From assembly GCA_027859095.1 (NCBI GenBank), contig JAQIBN010000244.1, forward strand, positions 1 to 38,528: DNA of 38,528 nt, given 5' to 3'. The DNA is from Spirochaetia bacterium. GTDB taxonomy: Bacteria > Spirochaetota > Spirochaetia > B11-G9. The first letter of the stretch is position 1. The number at the start of each line of letters is the position of its first letter. The notes under the pieces were generated by a model. It had not been told where the DNA came from, did not search any database, and saw only the letters and a program-made list of their open reading frames with translations. The position numbers and the translations under genes are program-made. Below, one piece after another: positions 14,240 to 36,007 of the stretch.

Positions 14240-14340
14240 ATCCTCACCTTTAAAATAAGTATTTTTGGATATGGGTCATCTATATGGAAGAAGGAATCCA
14301 TACCCTGATCTGTTCCACGCAGACCAATGAACGGGTAATT

Positions 14341-14511
14341 CCAACAGGCAGGTCTCCTGGCTCTGGGGACTATTTGCTGCTACCTTCCCGCCCTATCACA
14401 TAATTCAAGTGAATCGACAGTGGTATCTTAGAAGCAAAACCCCATTACAGTGGCGGAACCGCGCAGGTATTTAACCTGCTTCCCTATTATCCGATAAACG
14501 GAACCTGTATG
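14341..14511 (-). promoter_or_regulatory. Cobalamin riboswitch
   Basis: Read on the minus strand, the conserved blocks occur in order: AATAGGGAA with an AGCAGG hairpin, GCGGTTCCGCCACTGTAAT (containing the GCCACTG B12 box), GGGCGGGAAGG, and AGCCAGGAGACCTGCC near the 3' end (14347-14363). This is the Rfam cobalamin aptamer. The downstream segment (GGAATTACCC pairing with GGGTATGGATTCC) has no U-run, so control of btuF translation is more likely than termination. It lies about 100 nt upstream of btuF and should lower expression of the whole operon when adenosylcobalamin is abundant. Confidence 0.95.
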
Positions 14512-14520
14512 AATGCTTAT

Positions 14521-14549
14521 ATCCTATAATGAACGTATGCTGCCGTCAA
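14521..14549 (-). promoter_or_regulatory. Promoter of the cobalamin operon
   Basis: On the minus strand TTGACG (14549-14544), a 17-nt spacer and TAGGAT (14526-14521) place transcription start near 14514, just before the 5' end of the riboswitch aptamer. Confidence 0.6.
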
Positions 14550-21247: not shown

Positions 21248-22605
21248 TTAATTATTTCTATCCCGAATTTCTTTATTTTACCATGTAAGTTACTAGGGTA
21301 GATACCCATAGTTTCAGCGGCTCTGGATATATTATAACTATTTTCTTCCAATTTTTGTATAAGGAATTGTTTTTCAAATTTATCCTTTGCTTCATTTAGT
21401 TTCAAATTTGTATATTCATTATCCTTAATTGTTGAAGTATTTGTATCTTCCTGAATATAATATTTAACAGTTTCAGCAGAGATTTCTTTTTCATCAGTCA
21501 TTATGTTGATTCGTTCTATAAAATTTTTTAATTCTCTAATATTCCCAGGCCAATTATAATTTTGAAGAATATCCAATCCTTCCCTGGATATAGTTTTATT
21601 TGCTGCGTTATTCTTAGATCTAAATTTCTCTATAAAATAATAAATAAGTTCTTCAATATCACTTTTCCGTTCTTTCAATGAAGGTACGTGAATAGGAACA
21701 ACATTCAGTCTGTAAAAAAGGTCTTCTCTGAATCTACCTGCTTTAACTTCATTGGCAATATCTTTATTAGTTGCAGTAATAAGACGGGTATCCACTGTAA
21801 TTGAATTCTCACTGCCAATTCTTTCAAACTTAAGTTCCTGTATTGCTCTTAATACTTTCGCCTGGGCATTCATAGACATATCCGCAATCTCATCAAGAAA
21901 GAGTGTTCCGCCATGAGCCATTTCAAATTTCCCTTTCCGTCTGGCTACAGCAGAAGTAAAAGCACCTTTTTCATGGCCGAATAACTCACTTTCGATTAGT
22001 GTATCTGGAATTGCTGCACAATTAACCTCAATAAAAGGCCCTGTAGATTTGTTACTATTTTTATGGATTTCCCTTGCAATAAGTTCCTTTCCTGTTCCGT
22101 TATCACCTGTTATAAGTATTTTGGCATCTGTTGGGGCACTTTGCTTTATTCGAGTCCAGATTGCGTTCATATAATCAGAGGAACCTATCATTTCATCTTC
22201 CATAAAGGTTGCATTTTTTAGATTTACATTTTCCTTCTTTAACTCTTCCATTTTAAGAGCATTTTTAATTAAATTTATTATTTTATCCAGGGAAAGAGGT
22301 TTTTCGAGAAAATCATAAGCTCCAAGTTTAACAGCCTTAACAGCAATATCAATATTTGCATGTCCGGAAATCATAATTACTTCTATATTTGGATATTCCT
22401 TTTTTATTTCCTTAAGAACATCAATTCCTCCCATATTGGGAAGCCATACGTCGAGGATAACAAGGTCAATTGATTCTGATTTAAGAATACTCAGACCCTC
22501 AAATCCATCCCCAGCTGCAAAAACATGGTGATTTTCATCTCTAATTATATCTGACAGAACAGTTCTGATTCCCGGTTCATCATCAATTATCAGAATTTTA
22601 CTCAT
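21244..22605 (-). CDS. ntrX: NtrC-family sigma-54 response regulator (NtrX-like)
   Basis: A 453-residue protein: receiver domain 1-120 (phospho-acceptor Asp52 in VILDVWLP), AAA+ domain about 140-370 with Walker A GDNGTGKE at 167-174, Walker B GTLFLDEIADM, and a Fis-type helix-turn-helix at the C-terminus (NISRAAETMGI). The sigma-54 contact loop reads GAFTSA (214-219) rather than GAFTGA. The upstream gene encodes its probable kinase and rpoN lies 3.5 kb away. The hsp20 promoter at 35152 is a possible target. Confidence 0.9.
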   Translation of the reverse strand: MSKILIIDDEPGIRTVLSDIIRDENHHVFAAGDGFEGLSILKSESIDLVILDVWLPNMGGIDVLKEIKKEYPNIEVIMISGHANIDIAVKAVKLGAYDFLEKPLSLDKIINLIKNALKMEELKKENVNLKNATFMEDEMIGSSDYMNAIWTRIKQSAPTDAKILITGDNGTGKELIAREIHKNSNKSTGPFIEVNCAAIPDTLIESELFGHEKGAFTSAVARRKGKFEMAHGGTLFLDEIADMSMNAQAKVLRAIQELKFERIGSENSITVDTRLITATNKDIANEVKAGRFREDLFYRLNVVPIHVPSLKERKSDIEELIYYFIEKFRSKNNAANKTISREGLDILQNYNWPGNIRELKNFIERINIMTDEKEISAETVKYYIQEDTNTSTIKDNEYTNLKLNEAKDKFEKQFLIQKLEENSYNISRAAETMGIYPSNLHGKIKKFGIEIIK

Positions 22606-24365
22606 ACTGTATCCTCCATGGGGAGTTCAATGAAAAAAGTTGTACCTACTTCTTTTTCTGATTCATACCAAATAACACCTTTGTGATCTGCTATAATTCT
22701 TTCAATAATAGGTAGTCCCAGTCCTGTGCCACCATCTTTTGTTGTAAAATAGGGATTAAAAATATTTTTTTTCATTTTAGAATCTATTCCTGTTCCTGTA
22801 TCTGTTATCATTATTCTACAATAATAATTTTTACTTTTTCTAATAATTTCCGATTGAATTGTTACTATACCTTTATCTGCGATTGCATCAAATGAATTAC
22901 TAATAAGATTTGAGAATACTCTTTGTATTTGTCCCCGATCTCCCTTTAGTTCAGTGTTTTCTAATCCTTCAAGATCTAAAGTAATACGGGAATATGATTC
23001 AGAATATAACAGGGACACCTCTGTTACTAAAGATTTTAATTGAATGTTTTCCTTTAGAGGAGTTGGCATCCTTGAAAAATCTTTGAATTCAGAAAGTAAT
23101 TGCGTTAAATTCTCAACTTCGTTTATTATAGCATCAACAGCAGGTTCCAGTACAGACTCAATTGAATCTGGATCGTTTTTATATTTTTTCAATATTCTTT
23201 GGGCTGAAAGCTTTATTGGTGTCAGAGGATTCTTTATTTCATGGGCCATTCTTTGGGCAATTTCCTGCCAGGCTGTTATTTTTTCAGTGTGGACATAGTT
23301 GTTTCTGGATAATTCAAGATTTGAAACCATATCATTAAATGAATTAACAAGATTAGCCAGATCGTCTTTTGAATGGGTAAGGATCCTATAAGAATAATCT
23401 CCCTGAACAACTCTGCTTATTGCATTTTCTAAATGTGCTATTGGCTGAATTATTTCTTCGCTTAACAGAAAACTGGTAAGTATTGATAAAAGAATAATTG
23501 GTAATGAGAAATATGTGTAGAATAGTATTATTGACAATAAAAATGTTTGCTGAAAATCTTTATTTCTTGTAAATATTTTTAGAGAATCTGTTATTTTTCG
23601 AGCATTTTGATCAAAATTTTCAGGGAGAAGAATAGATAGCACCGCATATATATTTTCCCCATTCTGTAGAAATTCTTTTCTTGTTCTTAGAATACTTCTA
23701 TTCCCTTCTTTTGATCTTGTAACAGTGTTATTTTCAAAATTTAAAACATTTATTACTCTTAGATTACTCTCTTTTGATTTGTAGAATATTTCATTGCCCA
23801 GGGAATCAAACAAAGAAATACTGCTTACAGAAGGAAAAGCTCCTTTTATATTTCTCCATATGCTGTCAGGTGTAGCAACTGTATTCAATATAATATTTTC
23901 AAATATAAAGCTATCTCGAAATACTGCAATACCCTCCATGGAGGATCTATTATATTCAATGGCAATATCCAGCCCTCCGTTTAAAGCTTCTTCTGTACCA
24001 GAAGAAAACCATGATGTTATTGCCGAATTAATAAAATTTACTGCTAGTATACCCTGAGGAATAGAAGATAATATTGTAATAAATGTGAAAAATATAAGTA
24101 ATCTAGTTTTGAAGTTAGATCCAGGTTGATTTTTTTTTCTTTGTTTCAATAACTTTAATAAATTAAAGATAATTGTTGCTATCAAAAAAATGGGAAGTAC
24201 CATTGCCAGAGGAATGATTGTCAAGCTGGAAATAGAACCATTTGTAGCTATTTCAAGAAGAACTTTATTTGCAAAAATAAGAATTAATATTATTAATAAA
24301 ATATAGATTGAAACTATACTAATTAGACCAACATAAGCAGATTTTGTGTTTCTGTTACTGCCCAT
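22602..24365 (-). CDS. ntrY: NtrY-like sensor histidine kinase
   Basis: A 587-residue membrane kinase. Hydrophobic helices lie at about 11-33, 47-70, 87-108 and 275-300, enclosing an extracytoplasmic sensor region. HAMP is at about 300-355, HisKA has AHEIKNPLTPIK (phospho-His), and the HATPase domain has NLISNSFDA, DTGTGI and GGTGLGLPI. It overlaps the regulator gene by four bases (ATGA). The topology fits NtrY. The signal is unknown. Confidence 0.88.
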   Translation of the reverse strand: MGSNRNTKSAYVGLISIVSIYILLIILILIFANKVLLEIATNGSISSLTIIPLAMVLPIFLIATIIFNLLKLLKQRKKNQPGSNFKTRLLIFFTFITILSSIPQGILAVNFINSAITSWFSSGTEEALNGGLDIAIEYNRSSMEGIAVFRDSFIFENIILNTVATPDSIWRNIKGAFPSVSSISLFDSLGNEIFYKSKESNLRVINVLNFENNTVTRSKEGNRSILRTRKEFLQNGENIYAVLSILLPENFDQNARKITDSLKIFTRNKDFQQTFLLSIILFYTYFSLPIILLSILTSFLLSEEIIQPIAHLENAISRVVQGDYSYRILTHSKDDLANLVNSFNDMVSNLELSRNNYVHTEKITAWQEIAQRMAHEIKNPLTPIKLSAQRILKKYKNDPDSIESVLEPAVDAIINEVENLTQLLSEFKDFSRMPTPLKENIQLKSLVTEVSLLYSESYSRITLDLEGLENTELKGDRGQIQRVFSNLISNSFDAIADKGIVTIQSEIIRKSKNYYCRIMITDTGTGIDSKMKKNIFNPYFTTKDGGTGLGLPIIERIIADHKGVIWYESEKEVGTTFFIELPMEDTV

Positions 24366-26132: not shown

Positions 26133-27503
26133 TTATCTTTCGAATGAAGAATCTATTAAAAGTTCAGATCTGTATTTTGCCACTGTTCTACGTGCAATTT
26201 TAATACCCTGAAGTTTTAAAAGATCGGAGATTTTTTGATCGGAAAGTTTTTTTGCAGAAATATTTTCTGTAAGTAATTCTTTAATTGTTGCTTTGACCCC
26301 TTCTTTTGAGAATCGTGAGCCTGTTGATCCAGCTCCTGAAATGGAATTTGTGAAAAAGTATTTAATTGGGTAAATTCCCCACTCTGTTTGCATATATTTA
26401 GCATTTGATATTCTTGAAACTGTGGTTTCATGAACCTTAACTTCTTCTGCAACATCCTTAAGGGTTAGTGGTAATAGGTATTTAGGACCTTTTATAAAAA
26501 AATTCCTTTGAAATTCAACAATTACTGTTGCTATTTTTATAAGTGTTTGATTTCTTAAATGAATACTGTTAATAAACCAACGTGCATCTCTTATACTGTT
26601 ATTGATATAGTGACGGGTCTCTTTATCCTGTTTATTATGCTGGGATTCCTCAAAAAAAGGGGATATTCCCAGAACAGGGATTTCTTCATCATTAAGAACC
26701 AAAACAAATTCACCGTTTTTTATTGTTACCATAATATCAGGTATTACATAAGAAGGAGGAGTCCTGGAATAGAGTCTTCCTGGATATGGATTAAGAGTCT
26801 GAATGAAGTCAATAATTTTAATAATTTCTTCAGAAGATAAATTGAGTTTTTTTGTAAGTTCCTTAATATCATTCTTTTTTACAAGCGGGAGATAGTTCTC
26901 AATTATTTGGACAGTACCCTCGGGGGTTTCAAAAGAGAGATCTGCCTGAACCAGAAGTGACTCTTTATAATCTTTTACACATATACCAAGAGGGTCAAAT
27001 GAGTGAATTATATCCAATATTTCAGGTAGAATTTTCTGTTGTTCTATATTCAACAGTAAATTGGGGTCTTCCTGAAAAAAACCATTACTATTCAGATTGT
27101 GTATAATTAGTTCCCCTGTTTCAAATTGATCTTCACTGAGATTTTGTACCGCAAGCTGGGCCATCAGATGTTCCTGAAGAGATTCTGGTCTGGATAAGGC
27201 GCCTTCTAAAAAATTTTGTTTTCTATCGGATGCTTCCTTCCCCTCATGTCTTATAAATCCAGGATCTGAGCTGTTTTCAAAGTAAATATCTTTATCTTCA
27301 CTTTTTTCTTTAGAATACTCATCTATAGATATTAGTGATTTATCTTCTAATAATTCAAGAGCCGGGTTTTTTTCCAGTTCTTCATGAATTCTAAAAGTTA
27401 GTTCCTGAAGAGGTAGAGCCATCAACTGGATTGATTGAAACATTTGGGGAGACATTTTTAAACGCTGTTCCTGCACGAGGACAGGCTTTTGATATTGTTG
27501 CAT
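26133..27503 (-). CDS. rpoN: RNA polymerase sigma-54 factor
   Basis: A 456-residue sigma factor. Region I is Gln-rich and leucine-rich (LKMSPQMFQSIQLMALPLQEL, about 16-36), the core-binding region covers about 100-300, the HTH is around LKDVAEEVKVHETTVSRI, and the diagnostic RpoN box ARRTVAKYR is near the C-terminus. It needs an AAA+ activator, such as the ntrX product in this window. lptB precedes it by 28 nt and hpf follows. Confidence 0.95.
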   Translation of the reverse strand: MQQYQKPVLVQEQRLKMSPQMFQSIQLMALPLQELTFRIHEELEKNPALELLEDKSLISIDEYSKEKSEDKDIYFENSSDPGFIRHEGKEASDRKQNFLEGALSRPESLQEHLMAQLAVQNLSEDQFETGELIIHNLNSNGFFQEDPNLLLNIEQQKILPEILDIIHSFDPLGICVKDYKESLLVQADLSFETPEGTVQIIENYLPLVKKNDIKELTKKLNLSSEEIIKIIDFIQTLNPYPGRLYSRTPPSYVIPDIMVTIKNGEFVLVLNDEEIPVLGISPFFEESQHNKQDKETRHYINNSIRDARWFINSIHLRNQTLIKIATVIVEFQRNFFIKGPKYLLPLTLKDVAEEVKVHETTVSRISNAKYMQTEWGIYPIKYFFTNSISGAGSTGSRFSKEGVKATIKELLTENISAKKLSDQKISDLLKLQGIKIARRTVAKYRSELLIDSSFER

Positions 27504-34914: not shown

Positions 34915-35115
34915 AAACCCTTCTTAGAGAAAAAATATTGTGTAAAGTTTGCAAATAGTAGCAGATTAACCATGTTTAGTCGACTTGCTCAGGATAAAAT
35001 GACACAGAATTTCAATCATATTAACCTGCTGTATCATTATGACTCTTTTAATATATTGATTACTACTAAAAATCTGGATAAAAATTATTTGTGGTTTGAT
35101 AAGTCTATATGTAAT
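34915..35115. other. Noncoding region upstream of the hsp20 unit
   Basis: AT-rich DNA between the divergent YmdB-like gene and the hsp20 promoter region. No open frame or clear promoter was found. A sigma-54 activator binding site would be expected here or in the inverted repeat just downstream. Confidence 0.4.
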
Positions 35116-35148
35116 AAGTATATAATTTAAAAATTATATTATATACTT
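35116..35148. repeat. Perfect 11-bp inverted repeat beside the sigma-54 promoter
   Basis: AAGTATATAAT (35116-35126) and ATTATATACTT (35138-35148) are exact inverse copies with an 11-nt spacer. The right arm ends 3 nt before the -24 element. It may be an activator or repressor site. Activator sites usually lie further upstream, so repression or IHF-like bending is also possible. Confidence 0.6.
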
Positions 35149-35151
35149 AAA

Positions 35152-35168
35152 TTGGCATAGTATTTGCT
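35152..35168 (+). promoter_or_regulatory. Sigma-54 promoter of hsp20
   Basis: TTGGCATAGTATTTGCT places GG (35154-35155) and GC (35166-35167) with exactly the -24/-12 spacing of sigma-54 promoters (consensus TTGGCACG-N4-TTGCA). Predicted start is near 35179. rpoN and an NtrC-type activator are encoded in the window. Confidence 0.75.
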
Positions 35169-35178
35169 GTATAAGAAT

Positions 35179-35330
35179 ATAGGAGTTGCCGAAAGGAACT
35201 CATTAAAAGTCGCCTTATATAAGGGACTTAACAACACGCAATGCCTGGTCGGGATTCTGTCCCCTGGTCATAGACTTCGTCTATTGCTCGGGTATGCAGC
35301 CTTCCCTGCTCGGCCATGCCACTAGAGAGG
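35179..35330 (+). promoter_or_regulatory. Structured 5' leader RNA of hsp20
   Basis: The predicted leader of about 158 nt folds by eye into at least five hairpins. Hairpin 1: GAGTT/AACTC (35183-35201) with a bulged G and CC-GAAA-GG. Hairpin 2: AAGTC/GACTT (35207-35229), again with a bulged G and CCTT..AAGG. Hairpin 3: GGGA/TCCC (35251-35263). Hairpin 4: ATAGAC/GTCTAT (35270-35284). Hairpin 5: GCAG/CTGC (35296-35309). ATGCC (35241-35245) can pair with GGTAT (35291-35295), enclosing hairpins 3 and 4. It is not SRP RNA, tmRNA, RNase P or a riboswitch class I recognise. It could be a thermosensor, a riboswitch or a processed small RNA. Confidence 0.6.
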
Positions 35331-35336
35331 TGTTTT

Positions 35337-35822
35337 ATGAGAGACAAGATGGTTATGGATCTTGGTCAGATTATGGACGAGATTTTCGAGGCTACAAAGG
35401 GTTTCGGAGATGCATTTAAAGAGGGTATGCATCATGAAGGAAATGAACATGTTGACTACTACCCTAACTATTCCTACCCACCTGTAAATATTTTTGTTAC
35501 AGGAGAAAAAAGCCTGATTTTTGAGTTTGCACTTGCAGGATTTAATGAAAGTGATCTACATGTGGAATTTAAGGGAGATTACCTGGTATTCTCTGCAAAA
35601 TCTCCGGATTTTGATCATGGAAATGGAGTAAAATATTTTAAAAGGCGACTTAAGTTTAAAGAAGTGGCTGAACAGAAGTTTTTTGTTCCTGAAAATAAAT
35701 TTGATCAAAAAAAGGTGAAAGCTGTCTTTAAAAATGGTATACTAAAAGTAGTCATTCCCCCAAGGGAAATTATAGAGACAAAAGAAGGCATAAAAGTAGA
35801 AATAGTTAAGGAGGATGAATAA
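35337..35822 (+). CDS. hsp20: Small heat shock protein, Hsp20/alpha-crystallin family
   Basis: A 161-residue chaperone that would hold unfolded proteins. The alpha-crystallin domain spans about 45-145 (VNIFVTGEKSLIFEFALAGF; FKRRLKFKEVA) and contains the hallmark FKNGILKVVIPP near its end. ATG 35337 is chosen over ATG 35316, because AGAGAGG stands 5-6 nt before it. It is transcribed from a sigma-54 promoter through a structured leader. A 43-residue membrane protein gene overlaps its stop. Confidence 0.9.
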   Translation: MRDKMVMDLGQIMDEIFEATKGFGDAFKEGMHHEGNEHVDYYPNYSYPPVNIFVTGEKSLIFEFALAGFNESDLHVEFKGDYLVFSAKSPDFDHGNGVKYFKRRLKFKEVAEQKFFVPENKFDQKKVKAVFKNGILKVVIPPREIIETKEGIKVEIVKEDE

Positions 35823-35953
35823 TGTTTTTTTGGATAATAGTAGGAATAGCAATTGGGTATTTTTTCAAACCACAACTTGATGGTCTGGTTGGTAAAGCAA
35901 TAAAAACAGTTAAAGATAACAGAAAAAATAAATTTAGTGATGACGATTATTAG
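35822..35953 (+). CDS. 43-residue single-TM protein
   Basis: ATG 35822 overlaps the hsp20 stop (TAATG), with AAGGAGG ending 7 nt upstream. The N-terminal helix MFFWIIVGIAIGYFF (1-15) is hydrophobic, followed by a short Lys-rich cytoplasmic tail ending in DDDY. It lies between hsp20 and their shared terminator, so it is almost certainly coexpressed. It resembles no family I know; it might tether the chaperone or sense membrane stress. Confidence 0.7.
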   Translation: MFFWIIVGIAIGYFFKPQLDGLVGKAIKTVKDNRKNKFSDDDY

Positions 35954-35977
35954 ATTTTGCATCTATATTCTAATACG

Positions 35978-36007
35978 AAACCCCGACATTAAGTGCCGGG
36001 GTTTTTT
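35978..36007 (+). terminator. Rho-independent terminator of the hsp20 unit
   Basis: AAACCCCG (35978-35985) pairs with CGGGGTTT (35997-36004), followed by a T run to 36007. Confidence 0.9.

Follow-up and report, generated by a model that had tools for sequence, protein, structure and literature searches.

A spirochaete small heat-shock operon with a sigma-54 promoter and a possible ROSE-type leader of bulged-G hairpins

Introduction

How is a small heat-shock protein (sHSP) gene controlled in a spirochaete when its upstream region carries both a -24/-12 promoter and a long leader rich in hairpins? The question is raised by an hsp20 gene near one end of the 38,528-nt stretch analysed here (hereafter the window; contig JAQIBN010000244.1 of assembly GCA_027859095.1), which is contig 192 of a 4.2-Mb draft genome of a Spirochaetia bacterium. 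An earlier note, made from the sequence alone, had proposed that this gene and an overlapping membrane micro-protein gene form a sigma-54-driven unit with a second control at the RNA level. Escherichia coli ibpB is reported to be a sigma-54-dependent heat-shock gene. Some spirochaetes, such as Leptospira, lack RpoH (PMC12655853), and a survey of sigma-54 promoters found a chaperone cluster with COG0071 enriched in Planctomycetota and Bacteroidota, the group for Spirochaetia being COG0533 (PMC12316311). Our search of the literature, which covered open-access papers, turned up no account of a spirochaete hsp20 gene with an RNA thermometer or with a sigma-54 promoter. The analysis below points, with moderate confidence, to an operon of hsp20 and the micro-protein under two layers of control, sigma-54 transcription and a translational leader of the ROSE type.

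Results

The operon and its sigma-54 promoter

The unit consists of the following features, all on the + strand.

35152..35168, +, sigma-54 -24/-12 element TTGGCATAGTATTTGCT, exact in consensus and spacing (GG-N10-GC)
35179, +, putative transcription start, placed by sigma-54 geometry 12 nt downstream of the -12 GC
35183..35201, +, bulged-G hairpin 1, GAGUU-G-CC-GAAA-GG-AACUC, of a conserved hairpin class
35207..35229, +, bulged-G hairpin 2, AAGUC-G-CCUU-AUAU-AAGG-GACUU, top and sole genome match of covariance model R1 (E 0.007)
35327..35332, +, hsp20 Shine-Dalgarno sequence GAGGUG, kept in relatives
35337..35822, +, divergent small heat-shock protein (Hsp20/alpha-crystallin), 161 aa (PF00011; subfamily alignment A1)
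35822..35953, +, membrane micro-protein of a conserved family, 43 aa, overlapping the hsp20 stop codon by one base (TAATG)
35977..36005, +, intrinsic terminator, a stem of -14.8 kcal/mol followed by a U run

The hsp20 gene runs from an ATG at 35337 to a stop codon at 35820-35822 and its product matches PF00011 with E = 6.5e-11 (42.7 bits against a cut-off of 20.8), which places it in the Hsp20 family as first read, within a divergent subfamily that has its own N-terminal signature (alignment A1). The terminator also stands, having been overlooked by a simple scanner because of its internal mismatches.

The promoter element is the sole exact match to TGGCA-N6-TTGCT within the window. Perfect TTGGCAY-N6-TGCW sites, of which it is one, number 25 in the genome, and a reversed control pattern has none. 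Conservation of the GG/GC spacing had been set beforehand as one test of the promoter claim, and it holds: in the sequences upstream of the same sHSP gene in dereplicated relatives, 22 of 132 scored at least 11 out of 13, with 0.84 expected from dinucleotide shuffles, and at a threshold of at least 10 the 27 positives out of 132 fell to just 2-3 when the spacing was altered by 1 or 2. Ordinary hsp20 paralogues from the same and related genomes carried the element in 16 of 20 cases, 53-120 nt before the start codon (0.06 expected), and the remaining four look like second genes of operons, judging from their upstream sequences. With the element found before 22/132 sHSP relatives and 16/20 paralogues, sigma-54 control of hsp20 looks general across the class Spirochaetia, and there is a strong case that the window gene, like most hsp20 genes of the class, would be transcribed from such a promoter. 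This arrangement resembles other sigma-54-dependent heat-shock genes, namely E. coli ibpB and the predicted Planctomycetota and Bacteroidota groups (PMC12316311), in which chaperone genes lie behind -24/-12 promoters, and departs from the survey picture in that the element is carried by Spirochaetia hsp20 paralogues.

Among relatives without the element, 34 of 105 had a sigma-70-like hexamer pair. Loss of rpoN as the cause of sigma-70-type promoters was ruled out, as rpoN is present in 380 of 395 genomes of the class. Six loci (L007, L008, L009, L012, L013 and L017) keep the leader class and show sigma-70-like sites by eye in place of the sigma-54 element; here the promoter seems to have changed type and the leader to have been retained.

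Bulged-G hairpins in the leader

The leader extends from the putative start at 35179 to 35336. The earlier note had described about 150 nt rich in hairpins, and these proved real. Folding of 35178-35345 gave -53.3 kcal/mol (z = -2.0), which is weak alone, and it is the comparative evidence that makes the case strong. The sequences that precede genes of this sHSP subfamily, at about 160 dereplicated loci, were scanned mechanically for hairpins whose 5' side carries a single bulged nucleotide and compared with shuffled sequences. In 152 leaders, hairpins with a bulged G numbered 302, against 75.5 ± 7.6 in shuffles, whereas A, C and U bulges stayed at the shuffle level (72, 49 and 61 versus 67, 59 and 57). 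Nearly every leader (148/152) had at least one bulged-G hairpin, with 1-5 in each.

A stricter motif, defined as a bulged G whose next base is a paired C and which has at least two upper pairs, occurred at least once in 89% of sHSP leaders and in 8% of 240 sequences taken upstream of unrelated genes on the same contigs, and at least twice in 42% versus 0%. The leaders of the 20 hsp20 paralogues contained seven bulged Gs, not above the other letters. Stem pairing is maintained by covariation, which the earlier note had named as a check: in one size class, with 41 hairpins, the covariation score was 0.827, compared with 0.301 after shuffling, and eight of the nine stem pairs vary on both sides, while the bulged G and the C-G pair that follows it are invariant (41/41); the percentage of paired positions in this set is biased, the hairpins having been picked for pairing.

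In the relatives searched with covariance models R1 and R2, significant matches fall at this sHSP gene. Additional matches are weak and mostly inside coding regions, so that presence of the motif at other genes is unsupported; a stricter and less sensitive phylum-wide run of the models gave five matches. The hairpin loops are chiefly GUAU, GAAA or GUAC. The hairpins that do not contain the Shine-Dalgarno sequence are stable, with a median of -12 kcal/mol.

The Shine-Dalgarno hairpin and a dispersed repeat

In a subset of relatives the last hairpin captures the ribosome binding site. Of 131 leaders, 22 have a bulged-G hairpin whose 3' arm takes in the Shine-Dalgarno sequence, compared with 3.9 ± 2.0 in shuffles, and the stems differ from one relative to another (ACAC-G-CU/AG-GUGU, CAAUAC-G-CUU/GAG-GUAUUG, UCCUC-G-C/G-GAGGA and AUGAU-G-CCU/AGG-AUCAU), with compensatory changes among them. 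The excess of bulged G, the covariation and this Shine-Dalgarno subset together lend support to the second, RNA-level layer of control that had been suggested.

Two further features define the corresponding region of the window.

35234..35239, +, ACACGC, the 5' arm that pairs with the Shine-Dalgarno sequence in relatives (ACAC-G-CU / AG-GUGU), its partner lying 90 nt off in the window
35243..35319, +, dispersed repeat with CCTGGTC and TGCTCGG units and inner hairpins, between the arms of the Shine-Dalgarno hairpin

Some 77 nt of repeat thus lie between the two arms, at 35234-35239 and 35329-35333. Much of the hairpin-rich part of the leader is this repeat, which the first reading had overlooked. 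Elsewhere in the genome it has partial or longer matches at about nine sites, with 76-95% identity, and related expansions occupy the same leader position in two congeners (L004 and L006), with none in a third (L005). The repeat family, seen at L034-L040 and in the window, is built of CCTGGTC-hairpin and TGCTCGG-NATGCATCCT units, whose inner hairpins vary; a possible ATG start follows closely after the L034 copy. A potential anti-Shine-Dalgarno switch (CGCCUC/GAGGUG) that would involve hairpin 2 was also seen, and is not claimed because both strands are otherwise constrained.

Relation to ROSE elements and other known systems

The consensus of hairpin I in the ROSE family RF00435, cCgGcc-G-CC-uuau-GG-ggCcGg, has the same bulged-G shape as the spirochaete hairpins. 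Our motif finder recovered the bulged-G motif in most of the fetched ROSE leaders and in ibpB, and found its Shine-Dalgarno form, CUC-G-CUG...CAG-GAG, in both E. coli ibpA and ibpB; model R1 gave one weak match to hairpin I of a Sinorhizobium ROSE element (E 0.027). The spirochaete leader shares with ROSE its position upstream of sHSP genes, its serial hairpins and, in part of the relatives, a last bulged-G hairpin that holds the Shine-Dalgarno sequence. It differs in occurring in Spirochaetota, in having 1-5 bulged-G hairpins, in the optional nature of the Shine-Dalgarno hairpin and in its unrelated stem sequences. The G bulged opposite the Shine-Dalgarno region is likewise a feature of the ROSE-G thermometers (PMC12857270). 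By this analogy the leader is built like a ROSE element and may work like one, yet we do not assign it to that family, and the likeness is of architecture, with no claim of common descent.

The membrane micro-protein

The 43-residue transmembrane protein and its one-base overlap with hsp20 were both confirmed. Its ATG at 35822 is preceded by a Shine-Dalgarno sequence of its own (AAGGAGG, 35808-35814), and the same short protein follows hsp20 directly in about 50 relatives, mostly with an overlap of 1 or 4 bases. Its consensus is MIFWLIxGxxxGYFFKPQLDxxVxKVxRxIKDxR, with the core MxFWxIxGxxxGYFFKPQxD, and no confident match was found in Pfam or NCBIfam. It is missing from other branches, including treponemes, which keep the leader. 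By its sequence conservation the micro-protein gene is a conserved, translationally overlapping partner gene of the sHSP in one branch, where the proposed chaperone and micro-protein unit is conserved too; that it serves the sHSP as a partner or anchors it in the membrane is a guess. At L005 an insertion of about 150 nt with an inverted repeat (AAAAAGATTT...AAATCTTTTT) lies between hsp20 and the micro-protein gene and breaks the overlap.

Neighbouring genes and candidate activators

Three more features bear on how the promoter might be activated.

35115..35149,., AT-rich inverted repeat with perfect 12-bp arms, just upstream of the -24 element (local P ~0.008)
26133..27503, -, RpoN (sigma-54), with PF04552, PF04963 and PF00309
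21244..22605, -, NtrX-type sigma-54 activator with a receiver domain

The earlier note had assigned control of the unit to RpoN and the NtrX-type regulator. RpoN is indeed encoded in the window, about 8-9 kb from hsp20. Nothing ties NtrX to the promoter; the genome encodes 14 sigma-54 activator domains, so that NtrX is merely one candidate. The histidine kinase gene lies at 22602-24365. The inverted repeat abutting the promoter is also present, with arms of 12 bp and not 11 as first given, and nothing comparable was seen in eight relatives checked; it is probably not a conserved operator.

In four relatives (G006, G012, G037 and G051) rpoN also lies about 9 kb from hsp20, and the neighbourhood is thus conserved. 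The predicted sigma-54 regulon, the 25 loci of this genome (L283-L307), includes type III glutamine synthetase, STAS, PRC-barrel and HD-domain proteins, response regulators, an amidohydrolase and both hsp20 genes. At two of these loci, L287 (G000:C13:9774-9790) and L307 (G000:C299:218-234), genes of the sigma-70 family stand immediately downstream of perfect sigma-54 promoters, which suggests a cascade from RpoN to another sigma factor by analogy with the RpoN-RpoS system of Borrelia. Elsewhere in the window there is a cobalamin riboswitch at 14330-14523 on the - strand (95.7 bits).

Discussion

We propose that the sigma-54 promoter would drive transcription of hsp20 and the micro-protein gene, and that a ROSE-type leader with conserved hairpins bulged on their 5' side would then control translation; the structure of this leader is established by comparison, and its function in translational control is what we infer from it. 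In roughly one relative in six, the last bulged-G hairpin holds the Shine-Dalgarno sequence and would block ribosome entry. The hairpins without it are too stable to serve alone as thermometers, and for this reason their invariant bulged G is most simply explained if a protein recognises it. These hairpins are probably bound by a protein, and perhaps by the sHSP itself, the likeliest candidate; a self-regulator would fit a motif that each genome has at a single gene. In E. coli, IbpA attaches to the 5' untranslated region of its own mRNA and represses translation (PMC10474464), and that system has in common with ours an sHSP gene with a structured leader bearing bulged-G hairpins; in the same way, a spirochaete sHSP free of unfolded clients may repress its own synthesis. 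The micro-protein would be co-translated through the overlap. In the window itself the last switch has probably been loosened by the repeat inserted between ACACGC and GAGGUG, with hairpins 1 and 2 left intact.

Several observations weigh against this proposal. Unlike the E. coli system, the spirochaete subfamily does not preserve the loop that carries the RNA-binding residue R93 of IbpA; the loop is shortened here, and alignment could not settle whether the subfamily has an equivalent arginine. The ROSE families of Rfam, RF00435 and RF01832, had no match in the window or in 18 relatives, although as a positive control the ROSE models picked up E. coli ibpA as well as 10 of the 12 leaders fetched from Alphaproteobacteria; nor did any other Rfam family match the leader at gathering thresholds or credibly at relaxed ones. 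Closure of the Shine-Dalgarno sequence is no higher across the class than in shuffled leaders, and the Shine-Dalgarno hairpin is therefore a feature of a subset. In the window, the predicted probability that this sequence is unpaired is about 0.6 at every temperature, and folding across temperatures predicted no thermal switch, as the repeat parts the two arms of the hairpin.

The leader could instead be a pure RNA thermometer, a spirochaetal ROSE in which the Shine-Dalgarno hairpin melts on heating and the upstream hairpins merely aid folding. The 22 of 131 relatives with compensatory changes in that hairpin would fit, as would the architecture shared with E. coli ibpA/ibpB and RF00435. Predicted stability is no bar to it, since the known ibpB thermometer is likewise predicted to stay closed to 65 °C, for which reason Vienna predictions cannot separate a thermometer from a protein switch. 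However, closure of the Shine-Dalgarno sequence in this way is absent from the window and from the majority of relatives, and the best-conserved hairpins are very stable ones that exclude it, so that we regard a pure thermometer as possible, if doubtful. An array of binding sites for another RNA-binding regulator or a small RNA would account for the serial copies and the invariant unpaired base, both suggestive of recognition in trans; yet the single motif-bearing gene per genome favours a self-regulator, and CsrA is an unlikely ligand because the loops rarely carry GGA. We therefore consider such an array unlikely.

Protection of the transcript, with the 5'-end and leader hairpins shielding it from RNases and the bulged G recognised by or hindering a nuclease, is in keeping with stable hairpins in series, the first of which begins about 4 nt from the putative 5' end. 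It would need no specific, invariant G bulge, however, and hsp20 paralogues with the same type of promoter do without the motif, which makes a role in stability improbable. As for inverted repeats acting as DNA operators for a repressor such as HrcA, their nearness to the promoter is what one would expect, but the hairpins lie downstream of it and retain the unpaired G on one strand, and a DNA operator conserves sequence whereas these stems vary freely while keeping their pairing. An operator is very improbable. Returning to recognition by the sHSP, a wider version may be entertained as a tentative idea that we think rather less than probable, namely that the bulged-G hairpin is a widespread sHSP recognition element for self-repression, in spirochaetes and in the first hairpin of the proteobacterial ROSE, and that its thermometer role came later or is secondary, arising on capture of the Shine-Dalgarno sequence.

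Among the RNA thermometers known for sHSP genes, ROSE elements are the most common, and what their stable 5' hairpins do has been described as incompletely understood (PMC3669281). A second phylum that keeps and multiplies the bulged-G hairpin, often without the Shine-Dalgarno switch, would mean that the two functions are separable, and the role of the bulged G becomes directly testable in hairpins that are unable to be thermometers. With regard to transcription, the data suggest that spirochaetes, some of which lack RpoH, put their hsp20 genes under sigma-54.
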